Below are positions 1-62,712 of a DNA stretch of 64,000 nucleotides, in pieces. Within the stretch, counting starts at the first letter, position 1; the number at the start of each line of letters is the position of its first letter. Position numbers and translations under genes: made by a program. Below the pieces are notes generated by a model that had not been told where the DNA came from, did not search any database, and saw only the letters and a program-made list of their open reading frames with translations. This stretch comes from Anaerolineae bacterium (GTDB lineage Bacteria; Chloroflexota; Anaerolineae; Aggregatilineales; Phototrophicaceae), in contig JALOOG010000019.1 of NCBI GenBank assembly GCA_025454525.1, positions 1 through 64,000 of the forward strand, given 5' to 3'.

Positions 1-33
1 GTTAAGGGATATGAGAACAGATGTTTTGATCTT

Positions 34-73
34 TATAGCATGGAAAGGGGAAAAAATCGTAACAAATGTGACG
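34..73 (+). repeat. Dispersed intergenic element, copy 1
   Basis: This 40-bp copy matches the elements at 6867-6906, 23495-23530 and 43803-43836. It starts with TATAGCA and ends with AAAAAATCGTAACAAATG plus TGACG. The terminal palindrome CGTAACA-AA-TGTTACG is present with one mismatch (TGTGACG). No gene overlaps it. A binding site for a regulator is an inference. Confidence 0.6.
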
Positions 74-269
74 AGTTTGGGGGTTGACTTTTTGAGAGAA
101 GTAAGTATCAGGAAAGTTTCCGTATTACTGATCTCCCTTAAGGCGTATCAGATAGATGGATGGATGTTTTGAGCTTGTTGGATCGCCCTCTAACCACGTT
201 GCCACCCTCTTGGACATCTTGTAAACGGGAGTGGTGAATCTCACGGATATACAAAATCAATCAAAGTGC

Positions 270-1817: not shown

Positions 1818-3616
1818 GGGCGACCCCGCACATAACCGATGATTTTAGAGTGTAGTTGATCTGTGCCGTCTAGGTAACCGGGTAAACCGTAGGTGGTAGT
1901 GAGGTCATACAATGTCACAAACAGCGGGTAATCGCGTTCGGTAATCGGTTCAGTGATCAGCACCTCAAATTCATCACAAAAAATCTTGCCGGGTTGCCAA
2001 AGTGTGTATTTACTCAATCCCGGCAAAGATTCTTTACGTCCAACAATCGGTTCATTCGGTTGAATCCGATCGAGATCGGCTGAACCGACGATATGAAACG
2101 CAAAGGCATACGGTACGGGGATCGGGCCCGTGCCTTGCGGTGCTTGCCAACACAATTTGACTGTGAGCCGATCCCCTTGTGCGATTGTGTCCTGACTCAC
2201 ACTGTATCCGATAAACCGCGCCACACCAAAATTGATCACCTCATGTTGAAGATCATCTGGTGGGTTATCCATCAGGATGGGTGGGCCAAAGGCCGGCCAT
2301 AAGACTAAAGGCACAAAGATAAGCGCGAGTCCGATATAAACGCTGGGTGTGATCGCCTGTATAAGTCGACTCAGAGGGAGTTTTATCAACCCACCGACAA
2401 TCAAAAAGGTGAGTGCGCCTGCATACGGAAGATACAACCGTCCCGTGATGAGATCGGACATTTGCATCCATCGGATCAAGGCCACAAGTCCCAAAATTAG
2501 CAACACGATTGCCAAGATCAACCGAATATCTAAGCGTAATCGCGCACGGATCAACCCGATCAGCGCCAATATCGCGATTCCACTCGGTATGAGATATGCC
2601 CATGCCCCCGGCCGCACCTCACCCCAACCAAAATTGACCCAGAGCGTTTGTGCGATCACATCAAACCGCCCGATTGCCGCGGTGATCGTTTGTAATTCCT
2701 GAAAGCCCCAATCCATAAGCTGATGCGGATTAGTCCCCAAGGGATCGTCAAATAACACCCATCCGCGCATATACCACCATCCCGCGATCAACGCCGCTGG
2801 AACGATCAATGCGATCCCAGAAACGATCATTTGTCGTAAGTGGAGGCGATACAATCCGCCCAGTAAAATCGCAAGGCAAGGGATCGCCCAAACGATGATC
2901 CCACTGGTTTTAGACAACGCCGCTAATCCCATCATCATCCCTGTGAAGATCAAGAGTCGCCGATTTTCAGGAGTCCTCCAAAGCTGAAATGAGGCAGCAA
3001 GAGTCACCATAGAAAACGCGATCACCGCGGCATCATTGGTCAAGATCGCGTAAGTCTGTAAGATTGACGGCGTGAATCCCCATAGCGTAGCGCCCAACGT
3101 CGCCCACATCCGATCATGCCATAATGCGAGTCCCCCCCAATACACACTGATCAATCCGATCAACCCGAACACCCATGAGATGGGACGAATTGCGAGTAAT
3201 GTATGGGATAAACGTGCTTGATCGGGATGTAACGCGCTGATGGCTGGATTCATCACTGCGTAATTGCGATTATCGCGGCTGGTGGGATCGGCGGGAGTGC
3301 CGATCCACGGATTCAAATTGACCTGTAACGGATTTAATCCATCTACTGAGTACGGCAAGCTATACAATGCGGCGATCAAGTAATATAGTGGGGCCTGTGA
3401 GACTTGTTGACGGATGGCCGTAGACTCAAAATCGATCGGTGGATAGGGTAGTTGGCCAGTTTGTCGCAATTTTAGCACATAGGCGAAGTGTTCGATCTCA
3501 TCCGGGCCTTCAAAGGGTGGTAGGGCGGCACTATAAATCTGGGTAGTGATCACAAACAACACTGCGATCACCACCATTGGCCAATGCAAAGTCATCTTAT
3601 GCAAATAGTGATTCAT
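1814..3616 (-). CDS. Multi-pass membrane protein, GT-C/DUF2142-like glycosyltransferase candidate
   Basis: The 600-residue protein has an N-terminal membrane helix followed by PPFEGPDEIEHFAYV. An acidic D-E motif in the first outside loop is typical of GT-C fold glycosyltransferases that use lipid-linked sugars. Around ten further hydrophobic segments follow, and the last 150 residues are soluble. Its start overlaps the end of thrC by 20 bases. A second ATG at 3595, just after the thrC stop, is an equally possible start; neither has a clear ribosome-binding site. The 3' end overlaps the metB stop by 4 bases on the other strand. The substrate is unknown. Confidence 0.6.
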   Translation of the reverse strand: MNHYLHKMTLHWPMVVIAVLFVITTQIYSAALPPFEGPDEIEHFAYVLKLRQTGQLPYPPIDFESTAIRQQVSQAPLYYLIAALYSLPYSVDGLNPLQVNLNPWIGTPADPTSRDNRNYAVMNPAISALHPDQARLSHTLLAIRPISWVFGLIGLISVYWGGLALWHDRMWATLGATLWGFTPSILQTYAILTNDAAVIAFSMVTLAASFQLWRTPENRRLLIFTGMMMGLAALSKTSGIIVWAIPCLAILLGGLYRLHLRQMIVSGIALIVPAALIAGWWYMRGWVLFDDPLGTNPHQLMDWGFQELQTITAAIGRFDVIAQTLWVNFGWGEVRPGAWAYLIPSGIAILALIGLIRARLRLDIRLILAIVLLILGLVALIRWMQMSDLITGRLYLPYAGALTFLIVGGLIKLPLSRLIQAITPSVYIGLALIFVPLVLWPAFGPPILMDNPPDDLQHEVINFGVARFIGYSVSQDTIAQGDRLTVKLCWQAPQGTGPIPVPYAFAFHIVGSADLDRIQPNEPIVGRKESLPGLSKYTLWQPGKIFCDEFEVLITEPITERDYPLFVTLYDLTTTYGLPGYLDGTDQLHSKIIGYVRGRP

Positions 3617-6609: not shown

Positions 6610-6689
6610 AACGAAGGTGAGAAGCGGATCCAACGTTTGTGTTTGACCGCAAATATACATCCATAAAAATCACCCCTCACCTAAATATG

Positions 6690-6965
6690 GCGGTAGTGGC
6701 AGCGGCAAAGGGTAAAAATTTATTTGGCGACAGCGGCAGCGTGGTTAGGCGGATCGTAAGATTATGTCTCAAAGTCGAAAAGCGACCCTAAAACAAGCTA
6801 ACAAAAGCTGAAACCGCCCCTTCATTCGATCCTCCTTATAGGCGATGTTCGCCGTATTGAGTAGATTATAGCACAAATGAGCGAAAAAATCGTAACAAAT
6901 GTTACGTCTTTTCACCGATGTCTTTTGCTAAAGACTTGAGAGCGCTTATTGTCTAGTGGTGAGGG
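6690..6965 (+). repeat. Long dispersed intergenic module, copy A
   Basis: Blocks shared in the same order with 23345-23585 are: GGCGGCAAAG-type then AAAAATTTATT then GCGAC-GCGGCA; a CGTATTG block; the TAGCACA-ATGAGCG and AAAAATCGTAACAAATGT core; and a GAGCGCTTAT-like block then GTGGTGA. The spacing between blocks differs, so this is an old, diverged copy. No open frame spans it. The ALDH promoter lies at its downstream end. Confidence 0.6.
6867..6906 (+). repeat. Dispersed intergenic element, copy 2 (perfect palindrome)
   Basis: The 40-bp core begins TATAGCACAAATGAGCG and ends in the perfect palindrome CGTAACAAATGTTACG (6891-6906). It lies about 45 bp upstream of the aldehyde dehydrogenase promoter. 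Confidence 0.8.
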
Positions 6966-18499: not shown

Positions 18500-18528
18500 A
18501 TTGTATTTAGCACAATTGCGCTTGTCAA
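18500..18528 (-). promoter_or_regulatory. upp promoter
   Basis: On the minus strand, TTGACA (18523-18528), a 17-bp spacer and TACAAT (18500-18505). The -35 box overlaps the -35 box of the ruvB promoter. Confidence 0.75.
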
Positions 18529-21629: not shown

Positions 21630-22694
21630 TTGAAACTCAGTGACTTTGATTATGATTTACCCGAACAGTTCATCGCGCAAGCGCCGATTGAGCCGCGTGA
21701 TGCGTCTAAATTAATGGTGTTACACCGCGACTCGCAACAGCTTGAGCATCGGATTTTTCGAGACATTAGCGATTATTTACGCCCCGGCGATGTCTTGGTG
21801 ATGAATACGACCCGCGTGATCCCGGCGCGACTCCCAGCAACCAAAAGCACGGGCGGCGCAGCGGAGATCCTCTTGTTACGGATGCTTACTCCCACCCGTT
21901 GGCGTGCCTTGATCGGTGGGCGCAATATCCCGATCGGCGCAACCCTCACTTTAGCCAATGGTGTGATCGCCACGGTGATCGCGGATCTGGGAGAAGCAGA
22001 ACGCGAGATCGAATTTGATCAAGTGCTTACGGGAGAATTGCTTGACCAGATCGGCAAGATCCCGTTACCGCCGTATATTCAGATCGCGGAAATTGACCCG
22101 GAACGCTATCAAACTGTCTATAACCGTGAAGCCGGGTCGGCCGCTGCACCTACCGCCGGACTGCACTTTACACCGGAACTCCTCTTAAAATTGCGCGATC
22201 AAGGCGTGTTATTTGCCTATTGCGTGCTACATATCGGGCTTGATACCTTTGCACCCGTCAAAGTGGATGAGATCGAACAGCACAAGATCCACAGTGAACG
22301 TGCGATCCTCACGGCCGAAAATGCCAAGATCATCAATGACGCAAAATTGGCCGGTGGGCGGATCATCGCGATCGGCACGACCAGTACACGCACCCTTGAA
22401 ACGGCCGGTATCCTGAGTGCGGGGGGTGATCCGAGTCATCCGCACGAAAATCAAGATGTGTGTGCGTGGCGACCCGTGATCGCCTTTGAGCGTGATACCA
22501 ATCTGTTTATCTACCCCGGTTACAAATGGCGTACTGTGGATGCGATGATCACCAATTTTCATCTGCCAAAATCGACCTTGATGATGATGATCAGCAGTTT
22601 CGCCGGTCGTGAATTTGTCATGCGTGCTTATGAGACGGCTAAACAAGAGGCTTATCGCTTCTTCTCATTCGGAGATGCGATGTTAATCCTCTGA
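21630..22694 (+). CDS. queA: tRNA preQ1(34) S-adenosylmethionine ribosyltransferase-isomerase
   Basis: Transfers the ribosyl part of SAM to preQ1 in tRNA on the route to queuosine. The 354-residue protein has FDYDLPEQFIAQAP at the start, DVLVMNTTRVIPARL, TVYNREAGSAAAPTAGLHF and TNFHLPKSTLMMM near the end. The start codon is TTG (21630) with AGGAATGAG just upstream. Its last 12 bases overlap the GNAT gene on the other strand. Confidence 0.96.
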   Translation: MKLSDFDYDLPEQFIAQAPIEPRDASKLMVLHRDSQQLEHRIFRDISDYLRPGDVLVMNTTRVIPARLPATKSTGGAAEILLLRMLTPTRWRALIGGRNIPIGATLTLANGVIATVIADLGEAEREIEFDQVLTGELLDQIGKIPLPPYIQIAEIDPERYQTVYNREAGSAAAPTAGLHFTPELLLKLRDQGVLFAYCVLHIGLDTFAPVKVDEIEQHKIHSERAILTAENAKIINDAKLAGGRIIAIGTTSTRTLETAGILSAGGDPSHPHENQDVCAWRPVIAFERDTNLFIYPGYKWRTVDAMITNFHLPKSTLMMMISSFAGREFVMRAYETAKQEAYRFFSFGDAMLIL

Positions 22695-23282
22695 CAACCT
22701 GGCCGCAAAACCAGACGGATAACGGGTTTCCCATTCTTCACGCAAAATCCCATAACCAAGCCCGTCGTAGTATTGACCGTCCACGATCCGCGCCTTGCGG
22801 AAACAGGCTTCTTCTCGATAGCCGACTTTTTCTGCAAGGCGGATCATGCCACGATTGCCTGACCATGTTCGCAAGTCTAAACGCACGATCTGGGGCAGGG
22901 TATGGAACAAATACTCACTCCATAATCCCAACGCCTCATAACCGCGCCCTTTGCCCCATTCTGCTGGATCATGGATCACGATTCCGACCGCTAACCAAGC
23001 CGTCTCTTCGCTGATCCAATACCAGGACATGGTGCCGAGAAAGCGATCACTCGCTTGATCCGCGATTACTAAACGCAAGCGGGGAGTCGGAAAATCAGAC
23101 TCCGGTATTCGACGGCGCAAATTGTGGATAATCCCTTGAACCCCTTCTGAGGTGGGACGTGCGTAATAGGGGCCGTCTAACTGATGCCATTGGTGATGCG
23201 GTTGCATCCATTCGGCATAAACCTCCAGATCCGCTAAAATCCAATCGCGGAGTTTGGTTGTCTTACCCATGAGTTCAATCAT
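22683..23282 (-). CDS. GNAT-family N-acetyltransferase
   Basis: A 199-residue protein of the RimJ/RimL-like branch. It shows TTKLRDWILADLEVYAEWM at the start, RFLGTMSWYWIS, the acetyl-CoA loop EWGKGRGYEALGL, and RLDLRTWSGNRGMIRLAEKVGYREE. ATG 23282 is chosen because AGAGGT lies just upstream; the open frame continues to 23321 without a better site. It converges on queA with a 12-base overlap. The acceptor is unknown. Confidence 0.82.
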   Translation of the reverse strand: MIELMGKTTKLRDWILADLEVYAEWMQPHHQWHQLDGPYYARPTSEGVQGIIHNLRRRIPESDFPTPRLRLVIADQASDRFLGTMSWYWISEETAWLAVGIVIHDPAEWGKGRGYEALGLWSEYLFHTLPQIVRLDLRTWSGNRGMIRLAEKVGYREEACFRKARIVDGQYYDGLGYGILREEWETRYPSGFAARLSED

Positions 23283-23344
23283 ATTACCTCTTTTAAAAAA
23301 GTCTGATCGGACAATTAACAACCCCGTATTTTAAGATCCCCGTT

Positions 23345-23585
23345 TCCAGTGGCGGCAAAGAGGAAAAAATTTATTCAGCGACCGCGGCAAGGTAATCTTT
23401 AGGGCTACCTGATACACCTCAAAAACTCTGAGTCGCGCTGTTTATTCCATTTCATCGGGGACTCCCAAAGATGATCGTTGTCGTATTGTGTGATCATAGC
23501 ACAGATGAGCGGAAAAATCGTAACAAATGTCCATTTTTTAGCGCTTATCTAAATTTGTGGTGATTGGTGTAGTGCCTCATTGAGT
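23345..23585 (+). repeat. Long dispersed intergenic module, copy B
   Basis: This gene-free stretch shares ordered blocks with 6690-6965: GGCGGCAAAG, AAAATTTATT, GCGACCGCGGCA, TCGTATTG, ATAGCACAGATGAGCGG, AAAAATCGTAACAAATGT and TAGCGCTTAT. Spacing differs by tens of bases. It lies between the GNAT gene start and the DUF1003 leader promoter. Confidence 0.6.
23495..23530 (+). repeat. Dispersed intergenic element, copy 3
   Basis: CATAGCACAGATGAGCGG followed by AAAAATCGTAACAAATGT. The right arm of the palindrome is lost here (CCAT in place of TACG). Confidence 0.7.
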
Positions 23586-36300: not shown

Positions 36301-37641
36301 TTAATTCTGTAAGACCCGTTCCGCTTGATCTCGCAAGGCGCGCAACCGATCTAGGACTTGATCTTCACCTTGCGCTTGTAATACGTTGCTGACTGCATCC
36401 ATCACTTCTAACAGTTGATCGCCGAATTGTTTAGCGTATTGTTGTAACATTTGTTGCGCTTCTTGTTCAGTTTCGGCGGTCAACAATTGATTGACAAACA
36501 CCAATTCCGGCTGCATCTGTTCTTGTAAAATCTGCATGATTTGATCGTAAACCCCTTGCAAACGGGCGCTTGCGTTGATGTCTTTACGCCGTTGCGCTTC
36601 TTGTAGATTCGCAGTTAGGACGGCCATAAACGTATCATCGATTAAGCTAATGTTGGCCCGCACGATCTCTTCTAAGTTGGATGCGTTCAAAAACTCTTGT
36701 AACACGCGGGCGGCGGCCTCTAACCGCGCCCGTGCTTGTTGATCCACCAATTGGGTTAATTCTACCAATTTATCGCGTAAGGTCTCTAATTGCGTGCGTT
36801 GATCGGAAGGCGCTTGACCGATCGTTAACGTCAATTGTTGGAAAAATTCATAATCAAACACCGGACGAATCAACCCCACCACCGCTTGCAGGCGATCGTT
36901 GTCGTCTTGGTATTTGAGGGCTAATTGGAAGAAGTCCTCGCGAGTGGCCTCTTGTCCCAAGTTTTCGATCTCATGGGCGATCTCTTGAACCACACGCTCC
37001 CGATCCGATTGTTGAGCGATCAATTGTTGCCCAAAGGTTGAATTTTCGATCACGACTTGTTGTGTCACCATGATGCGTTGTGCCAGATCGGGTCGGCCCG
37101 ATTGCGCGGTGCGTTGGGCCATCAGCGTAAACGTCTGGAAGAAGGCGAGATCGATCTTGTCGTCGTTTTCTTGGATCAAGGTGAGCAGTTGTTGATCATC
37201 GCCTTCAACCATCTTTTGCATCAATTCGACCCGTTGACGTTGTGACTCCATCATTTCTGGGGTGACACCATCCGCCTGTAGGATCAGATCGGTGAGGCCT
37301 TGTAGGGTCAAGGTGCGTTTCGGATTGAACATATAGCCCTTGAAGTTGTCTTTTGGCAACGCCTTTAGCAGATCCCCGATCGCTTTTTCCTGTTGGTCTT
37401 TGTTCATGTTCAGTTCCATCGGGATGTAAGCGACCAACAACTCTTTCGTGGAGTCGTGGTACAGCAGCGGGGTAGCGACCGCGTTCATCGTGCTACAGTT
37501 GGGGCATTGGGCCATATTCAACTGACCGTTGAGTAAGGCCATTTTGGCTTGTGGTTCTTTAGCGACCTCAATCACCGTATGGATGGTGGTGGTGAATGGC
37601 TGTCCACACTTGGAACAGCGGATCGATAACTTTGTTTGCAT
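36301..37641 (-). CDS. CpXC-domain zinc-ribbon protein with long coiled coil
   Basis: A 446-residue protein. Residues 1-130 form a CpXC domain: IRCSKCGQPFTT and AQCPNCSTMNAVATPLLYHD supply two Cys pairs for zinc. The remaining 300 residues are Gln/Glu-rich helices, probably coiled coils (QDDNDRLQAVVGL, AQRRKDINASARLQGVYDQI). The function of CpXC is unknown. It ends 21 bases before the histidine kinase stop side, so kinase and CpXC genes are read together on the minus strand, kinase first. Confidence 0.78.
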   Translation of the reverse strand: MQTKLSIRCSKCGQPFTTTIHTVIEVAKEPQAKMALLNGQLNMAQCPNCSTMNAVATPLLYHDSTKELLVAYIPMELNMNKDQQEKAIGDLLKALPKDNFKGYMFNPKRTLTLQGLTDLILQADGVTPEMMESQRQRVELMQKMVEGDDQQLLTLIQENDDKIDLAFFQTFTLMAQRTAQSGRPDLAQRIMVTQQVVIENSTFGQQLIAQQSDRERVVQEIAHEIENLGQEATREDFFQLALKYQDDNDRLQAVVGLIRPVFDYEFFQQLTLTIGQAPSDQRTQLETLRDKLVELTQLVDQQARARLEAAARVLQEFLNASNLEEIVRANISLIDDTFMAVLTANLQEAQRRKDINASARLQGVYDQIMQILQEQMQPELVFVNQLLTAETEQEAQQMLQQYAKQFGDQLLEVMDAVSNVLQAQGEDQVLDRLRALRDQAERVLQN

Positions 37642-43321: not shown

Positions 43322-43807
43322 GTGGTGACTAAGATGAACATTAAAATTCGACGACAACAGCGAAAATCTTTGCTGATGAGGGTCGTCAGGGGGGGTGTAG
43401 AAGTTTATATCCCACGTTGGTTAAAACCCGACAGCGCCGAAGTCCAGATATTTATTCAGAAGGCATTGGTGCAATTAGAATCCAAGATCCCGCCCAAGCG
43501 CGAAGAGATCACCTCCCGCGCTACCTTGCGTGCCTTGACGACACGATGGGCCAAAAAGATGGGACTTCGCTTTAAGCGTGTCTCGTTTCGGGATATGCGT
43601 CGCAAATGGGGATCTTGTTCGTATAAGGGCAATATCACCCTGAATAGTGAGTTGTGTAGTGTGCCGATCGAACTTGCCGAATATGTGATCGTGCATGAAT
43701 TGGCGCATCTCAAAATCTTGGATCACAGTCCGGCGTTTTGGCAATTGGTGGAGCAGTATCTACCTGATTATGCGGATCGCAAAGAACGCTTAGAGGCTTA
43801 CTCGTAA
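43322..43807 (+). CDS. YgjP-like (DUF45/M48-type) metallopeptidase
   Basis: A 161-residue protein with the zinc motif VIVHELAHLKILDHSPAFW, a third ligand region in EQYLPDY, and FRDMRRKWGSCSYKGNITLN, all YgjP features. A GTG at 43322 is used; ATG 43334 is the alternative. The stop codon is embedded in the palindrome of dispersed element copy 4, so DNA element and gene end overlap. Confidence 0.88.
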   Translation: MVTKMNIKIRRQQRKSLLMRVVRGGVEVYIPRWLKPDSAEVQIFIQKALVQLESKIPPKREEITSRATLRALTTRWAKKMGLRFKRVSFRDMRRKWGSCSYKGNITLNSELCSVPIELAEYVIVHELAHLKILDHSPAFWQLVEQYLPDYADRKERLEAYS

Positions 43808-43836
43808 CATTTGTTACGATTTTTTCGCTCATTTGA
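43803..43836 (-). repeat. Dispersed intergenic element, copy 4 (reverse orientation)
   Basis: The perfect palindrome CGTAACATTTGTTACG (43803-43818), then ATTTTTTCGCTCATTTG, the reverse complement of CAAATGAGCGAAAAAAT in copy 2. The palindrome includes the stop codon of the YgjP-like gene. Confidence 0.8.
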
Positions 43837-44158
43837 GGATCGATCTCTTTTGATTGGAGCGTATGATGATCCGTTTGACTCTGGTGTCATTTTTTTCACT
43901 GATACCCGCTCTTCCGATCTTACAATCAGACTGAACTCACCGCCGCCTGTATTCTGCTCTTGGCTCTTGCTGCGATGATCAGACACATGGTGTCTATTCA
44001 TTCTGTCGTTTATCAAATTCTTTGTATGAATTTACTGCCGAAAAATTTTTCTTTTGACCGCCGCCCTCCGCCGCCGTTTAGTGTTACACTTGGATCAACT
44101 TGTGAATGTTGCCTTAACCAGAAGCAAATGTTTGCTTCTTTAAAACAGGAAAGAGGTT
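43837..44158. other. Gene-free stretch between the YgjP-like and ROK genes
   Basis: No credible gene is seen. The region holds a CCGCCGCCCTCCGCCGCCG tract (44058-44076) about 85 bases before the ROK start. AGGAAAGAGG just before 44159 is the ribosome-binding site. No confident promoter could be assigned. Confidence 0.6.
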
Positions 44159-45145
44159 ATGAACGATATTATTATCAGTATCGATCTCGGTGGGACACGT
44201 ATTCGTGCGGCACGTTTTAACACCCATTTACACATTCTAGAGCGTACCGAGACGCTCACGCTTGCCCATGAAGGGCAAGCGGCCGTGTTAGAACGGATCA
44301 AAGGCCTTGTACGGGAAGTTATGCCGGCCGATGGATCGAAAGTCTTAGGTATTGGCATTTCTGCACCGGGGCCTTTGAATCCACAAACAGGGGTGATCGT
44401 TGCGCCGCCTAACCTCAATGGTTGGCATAATGTCCCTTTGGGCGGAATTTTACGAGAAGCGTTTGATTTACCCGTGTATGTGGGGAATGATGCGAATGTG
44501 GCTGCTTTGGCGGAATACTTGCGTGGGGCAGCCAAAGGCAATTATCGTCATATCGTGTATGTCACCCATAGCACCGGCATTGGGAGCGGGATTATCACTG
44601 AAGGCAAGTTGTTACTAGGGCGTGATGGGTTAGCGGCTGAAGTTGGGCATATCCCGTTAGTGTTCGATCAGGGGCGGATCTCTACGCTTGAAAATGAAGC
44701 GGCGGGGCCGGATATGGCTGCACAAGCGGTTAAACGTATTCAAGCGGGAGAAACTTCCGCGATTGTCGATTTAGTGGACGGTGATCTAAGCCGTGTCACT
44801 GGGAGTATCGTCGGTCATGCGGCACAACAAGGGGATCCATTAGCCTTAGAGATTGTGCGCCGTAGTGGGATGTTATTGGGCTTAGGGATCGTGACCTTGT
44901 TGCATCTGTTTAATCCGGAGATCGTGATTGTCGGTGGTGGGGTGAGTACCTTGGGCGATCTGATCTTTACGCCGATGAAAGAGGCGATCGAACGTTACGC
45001 CCATGATCCGGCCTATTATCAAGACTTGGTGATCACGCACCCGACGTTAGGTGAAGATGTCAGTTTGGTTGGGGCAGCCGCGTTAGTCTTGACGCAAGGC
45101 GGCGGCATGGACATCACGGCCGCGGCGCAAAAATTAGCTTTGTAA
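44159..45145 (+). CDS. ROK-family sugar kinase (glucokinase-like)
   Basis: Probably phosphorylates glucose or a related sugar. The 328-residue protein has the ATP loop ISIDLGGTRIRAARF, GIGISAPGPLNPQTGV, VGNDANVAALAEY with the catalytic Asp, and HSTGIGSGIITEGKLLLG with LAAEVGHIP. The Cys-rich zinc motif of many ROK proteins is missing, as in other zinc-free members. No DNA-binding domain is attached, so it is a kinase rather than a repressor. Confidence 0.9.
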   Translation: MNDIIISIDLGGTRIRAARFNTHLHILERTETLTLAHEGQAAVLERIKGLVREVMPADGSKVLGIGISAPGPLNPQTGVIVAPPNLNGWHNVPLGGILREAFDLPVYVGNDANVAALAEYLRGAAKGNYRHIVYVTHSTGIGSGIITEGKLLLGRDGLAAEVGHIPLVFDQGRISTLENEAAGPDMAAQAVKRIQAGETSAIVDLVDGDLSRVTGSIVGHAAQQGDPLALEIVRRSGMLLGLGIVTLLHLFNPEIVIVGGGVSTLGDLIFTPMKEAIERYAHDPAYYQDLVITHPTLGEDVSLVGAAALVLTQGGGMDITAAAQKLAL

Positions 45146-62235: not shown

Positions 62236-62712
62236 AAGGCAAAAGACTCCTAATGACTCATCTAAAGAACAAAGGGTACAGCGCAAGAAGTATTACATAA
62301 GCTGTTTAAGGAACGAATGCGCCTTGTTTAAATCACCTTAAACATCAAATGAGGCTTCCCATATCTAAATTATAATAGATGTAAGAGGACTTGCAATTGT
62401 CCTTATTTCATGACAGAGGTGATCGGCATCGATATTTTAACTACAGCACATCTGATTTCATCAAAAGCAAGAAAAAACCATCTTGGGTGAGGGCAATCGC
62501 TTAAAAAACAGAATATTTGTGCTATCCTTCATCTAACACCCTTCCACCTCAATTTTCGCCTTCTCATGAAGGGCGATTCCGTCGGGATTTTTGCATCCTC
62601 AAGTTTGATCTTACGTATGCGACCGCCGAAAAAGTTTTTCATGTTGAAGCGATGTCGCTAAGGATGGACGATCGCACGGTAAAAATTGTGCTATATTTAT
62701 CAACAGTATGGA
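62236..62712. other. Gene-free stretch upstream of the nuclease
   Basis: The region holds the nuclease leader and promoter (62369-62396). No gene, RNA or repeat could be supported in the remaining 300 bases (62397-62712). Short plus-strand frames here lack ribosome-binding sites. Confidence 0.6.
62369..62396 (-). promoter_or_regulatory. Promoter of the secreted nuclease
   Basis: On the minus strand TTGCAA (62391-62396), a 16-bp spacer and consensus TATAAT (62369-62374). The transcript would have a leader of about 125 bases. Confidence 0.75.

Follow-up and report, generated by a model that had tools for sequence, protein, structure and literature searches.

Copies of a dispersed repeat in the window

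The window, the whole 64,000-nucleotide stretch of DNA analysed here, starts at the first base of its contig and carries five copies of a repeat of about 230 bp, referred to here as element A. An earlier note had described four copies of a 40-bp unit, a palindrome with a left flank, at 34–73, 6867, 23495 and 43803. All four were located, together with a fifth, decayed copy at ~62491–62655; the 40-bp unit exists, but it is only the promoter end of element A, as became clear once 30 loci, and later 108 copies, had been aligned in one direction. The orientation adopted here for element A is the reverse of the one used in the note, and some copies are longer, with terminal-inverted-repeat-like (TIR-like) ends. 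The features of the window are:

23–81, minus strand: element A copy 1, represented by its promoter block alone (R2, 24.9 bits)
6684–6917, minus strand: element A copy 2, complete, with promoter block, leader and C-rich block (nhmmer 181 bits; promoter model 77.7 bits)
6686–6762, minus strand: C-rich block of copy 2 (model R1, 74.1 bits, E 2.6e-20)
6867–6883, minus strand: operator 2 of copy 2, putatively LexA/SOS-type, CGCTCATTTGTGCTATA, overlapping the extended -10 (TGTGCTATAAT)
6891–6906, minus strand: operator 1 of copy 2, perfect palindrome CGTAACA(AA/TT)TGTTACG, centred near -41 of the inferred start
18508–18522, plus strand: possible native operator TAGCACAATTGCGCT, three mismatches to TAGCACARATGAGCG, upstream of ruvB and outside any element
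23343–23540, minus strand: element A copy 3 (nhmmer 124 bits; promoter model 74 bits)
43801–44075, plus strand: element A copy 4 (nhmmer 53 bits at 43801–43947), palindrome intact, operator 2 and -10 decayed
44036–44075, plus strand: C-rich block remnant of copy 4 (R1, E 0.0024)
about 62491–62655 (approximate), plus strand: element A copy 5, decayed (nhmmer 19.2 bits at 62515–62640)

The palindrome and its flank lie where they had been reported, and both exceed chance. The palindrome CGTAACAAATGTTACG is indeed perfect in two copies (6891–6906, plus strand, and 43803–43818, minus strand) and has one mismatch at 58–73; with up to three mismatches it occurs seven times in the window against 0.55 expected, a count reached in 0 of 100 shuffles. 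The flank TATAGCACAAATGAGCG is exact at 6867 and has two mismatches at 23495, with three matches in the window against 0.2 expected. At 34–73 the flank TATAGCACAAATGAGCG is replaced by TATAGCATGGAAAGGGG, with spacing unchanged. A palindrome at 36443–36458 and a flank match TAACGCACAAATGAGCG at 1532–1548, each with two mismatches and inside an open reading frame, were set aside as probably due to chance.

The remainder of copy 1 is cut off by the contig start. In copy 2 the C-rich block reads CTTACGATCC..CTAACCACG.TGCCGCTGTCGCC..AATTTTT..GCCGC, and that of copy 3 ends ~50 bp before a GNAT acetyltransferase gene of the same direction (22683–23285, minus strand). Copy 4 is directed towards a ROK-family gene (44159–45145, plus strand); it retains CAAATGAGCG but has lost the TATAGCA part of the flank, so that its promoter is broken. 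As reported, its palindrome (43803–43818) covers a stop codon, the TAA of a YgjP-like metallopeptidase gene (43322–43807), and at a few other loci upstream genes likewise terminate inside the left edge of element A. Operator 1 of copy 5 is mostly deleted, and GGGCAATCGCTT and TTGAAGCGAT-like ends are discernible on reading the sequence.

Anatomy and copy number of element A

The 5′ part of element A consists of an A-tract, ACAWWTGTTACG, YTTTTY, CGCTCATCTGTGCTATnnTC, ~25 nt, and AAGGAG followed by ATG. The 3′ part begins with a T-rich stretch of variable length and continues as CAATCTTACGATCC..CTAACCACGTTGCCGCTGTCGCCGAAwwAATTTTTT..GCCGCCGCC, a conserved C-rich block that is unstructured. This block was considered as a rho-utilisation site and rejected, its excess of C over G being an unremarkable one that 9% of intergenic windows reach.

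The host genome (5.24 Mb in 230 contigs) holds many further copies, which the genome scan suggested in the note was to look for. The promoter-block pattern, allowing up to three mismatches, was found 141 times (77 copies with none, 42 with one and 22 with two or three) and its reversed control not at all, and the 16-mer palindrome is perfect 42 times. The C-rich block alone, used as a profile, matched 136 of the 150 candidates scored. A profile search for element A covered 1.61 Mb, the window among them, and gave 59 matches scoring over 30 bits; the 1.61 Mb are whole stretches of the largest contigs that were mostly known from earlier matches and are perhaps slightly enriched. At this density ~190 copies per genome would be expected. 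The copy number in the host is thus roughly 140–190, and many of the copies are located at the ends of contigs. Pairwise identity between copies averages 63% and reaches 91% at most; with no near-identical pair among them, any spread must be old. Some copies, as at L376:6843–7165 and L001, look head-to-head, with two divergent promoters and one common palindrome.

With its own promoter, a conserved SD and ATG and a conserved 3′ block, element A could be taken for ~190 small RNA or micropeptide genes, each retained for its own product. This is very unlikely: the SD and ATG of the leader are conserved but the reading frame is not preserved between copies, and element A as a structured RNA was rejected on a mean z of +0.8, the mean being above 0 on both strands, and on the lack of an Rfam match; no terminator hairpin is evident.

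A strongly conserved promoter block with two operator-like palindromes

The palindrome centred near -41 retains ACAWWTGTTACG, and its outer left arm varies (CGTA, CGGG, CGAG, ACAG or GTGG). Its distance to the -10 is constant in aligned copies. A second operator, CGCTCATYTGTGCTA, overlaps the extended -10 TGTGCTATnnT; the hexamer that follows TGTGC was tallied over about 59 copies found with the profile and is T(52) A(57) T(52) n n T(58). This is the common -10 pattern TATnnT, and its last T lies outside the operator. This operator 2 is the near-palindrome GCWCAWWTGWGC, a two-fold symmetric 12-mer, and the other palindrome (core AACAWWTGTT) sits 22 bp upstream of it. The suggestion that the unit is an operator with a second site is borne out to the extent that element A appears to bear two operator-like palindromes, 22 bp apart, on one promoter.

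The promoter block is conserved more strongly than the leader. The two operators diverge from the consensus by 8–10%, the spacer by 14%, the surroundings of the SD and ATG by 26%, the core of the C-rich block by 15–22%, and the 5′UTR and middle by 40–44%. This contrast between operators and leader is an upper bound because the profile and patterns favour copies with an intact block. The mismatch counts of 77, 42 and 22 are unlike neutral decay, given the mean identity between copies.

The palindrome resembles the PrfA box (TTAACA-N2-TGTTAA) and the NtcA box (GTA-N8-TAC), and its place near -41, its fixed spacing, the AT-rich tract upstream and an extended -10 with a poor -35 would all suit a Crp/Fnr-type global activator bound at about -41.5 in class II activation. 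We regard such an activator as quite unlikely, since GTAACANNTGTTAC is no commoner than background in 40 relatives, many copies have a palindrome with a decayed left half, and the operator found at lexA throughout the class is the other one, operator 2. The 16-mer palindrome was present in no paper found in a literature search.

Operator 2 in lexA promoters of the class

The left flank TATAGCACAAATGAGCG, and not the palindrome, turned out to be the informative part, as it matches a class-wide operator of lexA promoters. Searches of ~300 class genomes with the promoter and C-rich-block profiles gave weak partial matches only, and these were the key lead to the identity of the operator: three promoter-profile matches covered little beyond CGCTCATYTGTGCTAT, and two of them lay directly before lexA. 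The C-rich-block matches, in 10 other genomes, scored 21–26 bits and were discarded, those read looking GC-rich and partly coding.

With up to two mismatches, TAGCACARATGAGCGAAAA occurs in 66 of 396 class genomes, usually once per genome, the reversed control giving scattered single matches. Sixteen of the 29 loci read outside the host genome are lexA promoters, most of which also hold a GAAC-N4-GTTC box and a -10 just upstream; others lie before genes for an AddB/UvrD-like helicase (n = 3), a PD-(D/E)XK nuclease (n = 1) and TcmP (n = 1). Location and comparative genomics thus point to a LexA/SOS-type identity for operator 2, and GCWCAWWTGWGC becomes a testable candidate SOS operator motif for the class. 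No LexA motif for this bacterial group was described in the papers found, which were few.

In the host, a LexA of 219 aa with an S24 peptidase is encoded at L268, and its recognition helix (STSVVNY) is identical in LexA of the relatives that have the motif. The host lexA promoter carries a canonical box, GAACGAGTGTTC, and not operator 2, and at recA a clear box is missing. That LexA binds operator 2 in the host is therefore something we infer, and a different damage regulator could be the one that uses this site. The canonical GAAC-N4-GTTC box is found in none of the element A copies, and operator 1 differs from it as well, so that what is proposed is a lineage-specific operator and not the canonical box.

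That other regulator could be a WYL/PafBC-like activator or a LexA paralogue, an unlikely reading in our judgement, as is its corollary that operator 2 and GAAC-N4-GTTC stand together in lexA promoters as a dual control. The lexA promoters of relatives do hold both motifs side by side, and in L270 a 73-aa protein with the LexA DNA-binding domain only and no S24 peptidase (L270:1477–1698, minus strand) adjoins a block-1 promoter with a hybrid operator. Against a regulator other than LexA, operator 2 shares with LexA boxes the form of a 12-mer with two-fold symmetry, it overlaps -10 elements as repressor sites do, and one half of a hybrid site is canonical: this site, TAGCACAGATGTTCG followed by the second palindrome, lies in L270, where a 124-aa gene starts ~30 bp further on.

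Outside the elements, operator 2 was matched 116 times in 1.61 Mb with up to three mismatches, a level at which the matches are mostly chance. Nineteen of these sites are in front of genes, two of which are ruvB in this window (RuvB identified by NCBIfam; match quality at 18508–18522 near chance) and an addA-like gene; as candidate native operators these two are suggestive only.

Taken together, element A is probably a dispersed and non-autonomous repeat with a LexA/SOS-type operator-promoter. The note's alternative of a small non-autonomous element appears to hold alongside the operator reading, as a dispersed repeat of ~230 bp.

Position relative to genes and a possible mechanism

Element A is biased to the 5′ ends of genes, in sense, in keeping with the enrichment upstream of genes that the note had proposed to look for: copies lie mostly just 5′ of genes, with a median gap of 98 bp to the next gene start. 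In the 1.61-Mb set, edges excluded, 27 elements lie between divergent genes, where the share of intergenic bases predicts 17; in tandem regions 19 are sense and four antisense (p 0.003), and two lie between convergent pairs against 6.6 expected (p 0.06). By eye, a separate -10-like sequence follows the element in many copies. Judged from predicted first residues alone, the downstream genes look diverse and have no DNA-repair theme. At L101, about 3200–3330, an element copy is followed by what looks by eye like a cobalamin riboswitch.

A repressor on operator 2 would cover the extended -10 and, with the second palindrome 22 bp upstream, exclude RNA polymerase. DNA damage would lead to LexA cleavage and release of the element A promoter, whereupon the leader and, unless transcription terminates, the gene just downstream would be transcribed. 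LexA binding, damage induction and read-through, like spread by transposition, are what we infer from sequence. The genome seems to have DNA-damage-controlled promoters scattered before unrelated genes.

A genome usually has few LexA operators, and these belong natively to repair genes. The presumed SOS regulon of the class (lexA, AddB-like helicase, PD-(D/E)XK nuclease and TcmP) has the same operator, TAGCACARATGAGCG, likewise overlapping the promoter, mostly at one site per relative genome and at repair genes, whereas element A would place ~140–190 sites in a repeat, mostly at genes that have no obvious part in repair.

Restriction to the host genome

Within the collections searched, element A is restricted to the host genome. 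It is absent from 40 related genomes of the host's family and order and from viral contigs (IMG/VR), and its exact pattern from 84,980 GTDB genomes, a set that possibly does not include the host. The conservation in relatives that the note had envisaged was thus not observed, as would be expected if the element had expanded in this one lineage and not if it marked an inherited regulon. A scan with PEPCK gave best matches of 64%, several of them Chloroflexota among mixed phyla, and the host is probably a member of the Chloroflexota.

Mobility and relation to known repeats

Element A is likely to be mobile, judging from its copy number and the TIR-like ends of some copies. Left ends (GGGTAATCGCTTCAAAA) were found in 35 of 108 copies against 34 of 1210 random stretches (~3%), right ends (TTTTTGAAGCGATTGCCC) in 17 of 108 against 19 of 1210 (~2%), and both in 10 of the 108. 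By eye, no target-site duplication was seen in the flanks of copies with recognisable ends. The left-end pattern occurs in 19 places, and in the five read no transposase is flanked by these ends.

Like MITEs and promoter-bearing small repeats such as Correia, RUP, BOX and ERIC, element A is short, non-coding, intergenic and high-copy, with TIR-like ends in some copies, and some Correia/RUP/BOX/ERIC-type repeats also carry promoter or regulator sites. It has the MITE traits of a length of ~230 bp, absence of coding capacity, 141 or more copies and confinement to one lineage. Unlike these repeats, it forms no hairpin and has an operator-promoter block strongly conserved relative to the leader.

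It is conceivable, though we hold the idea only tentatively, that a selfish or domesticated short repeat took up the SOS operator of its host and carried it to nearly 200 sites, and that the damage response of this one lineage was rewired as a result. Damage would then fire promoters before some 3–4% of genes simultaneously, and LexA would be titrated by the copies; close relatives, by contrast, have stayed at about one such site per genome. If an operator-promoter has spread to ~140–190 places, it offers a natural experiment on how a global repressor deals with multiplication of its operator, and on how mobile DNA rewires a stress regulon.

Other elements under LexA control are the ISCR transposase (PMC13393415) and phage GIL01 (PMC4551915), and in M. 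tuberculosis 13E12-family HNH genes fall within the LexA-controlled set (PMC4181829). As predicted for element A, each is a mobile or repeated element with a promoter held by the host SOS repressor; they differ in encoding transposase, phage or HNH proteins in few copies, whereas element A has no conserved open reading frame and ~140–190 copies.

About 28 copies of element A have another left flank in common (ATACAGACA class). In these class-2 copies, for example L058 and L064, CTCTGTGTCCTCTGTGGTT stretches recur upstream of many of the 28 (ACAGACA/TAGACA left arm). At L031, L076 and L136, remnants of IS630-type transposase genes, recognised by eye, abut the element A palindrome at the same TA; they were rejected as an autonomous partner and read as insertions. 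A second repeat family, B (~130 bp, TIR-like ends AAGTnATCTCAGrAAAGTwTC), was not found in the window with the consensus used and has 58 matches in 1.61 Mb; it is inserted in several element A copies and flanks others (L022, L220, L139, L133).
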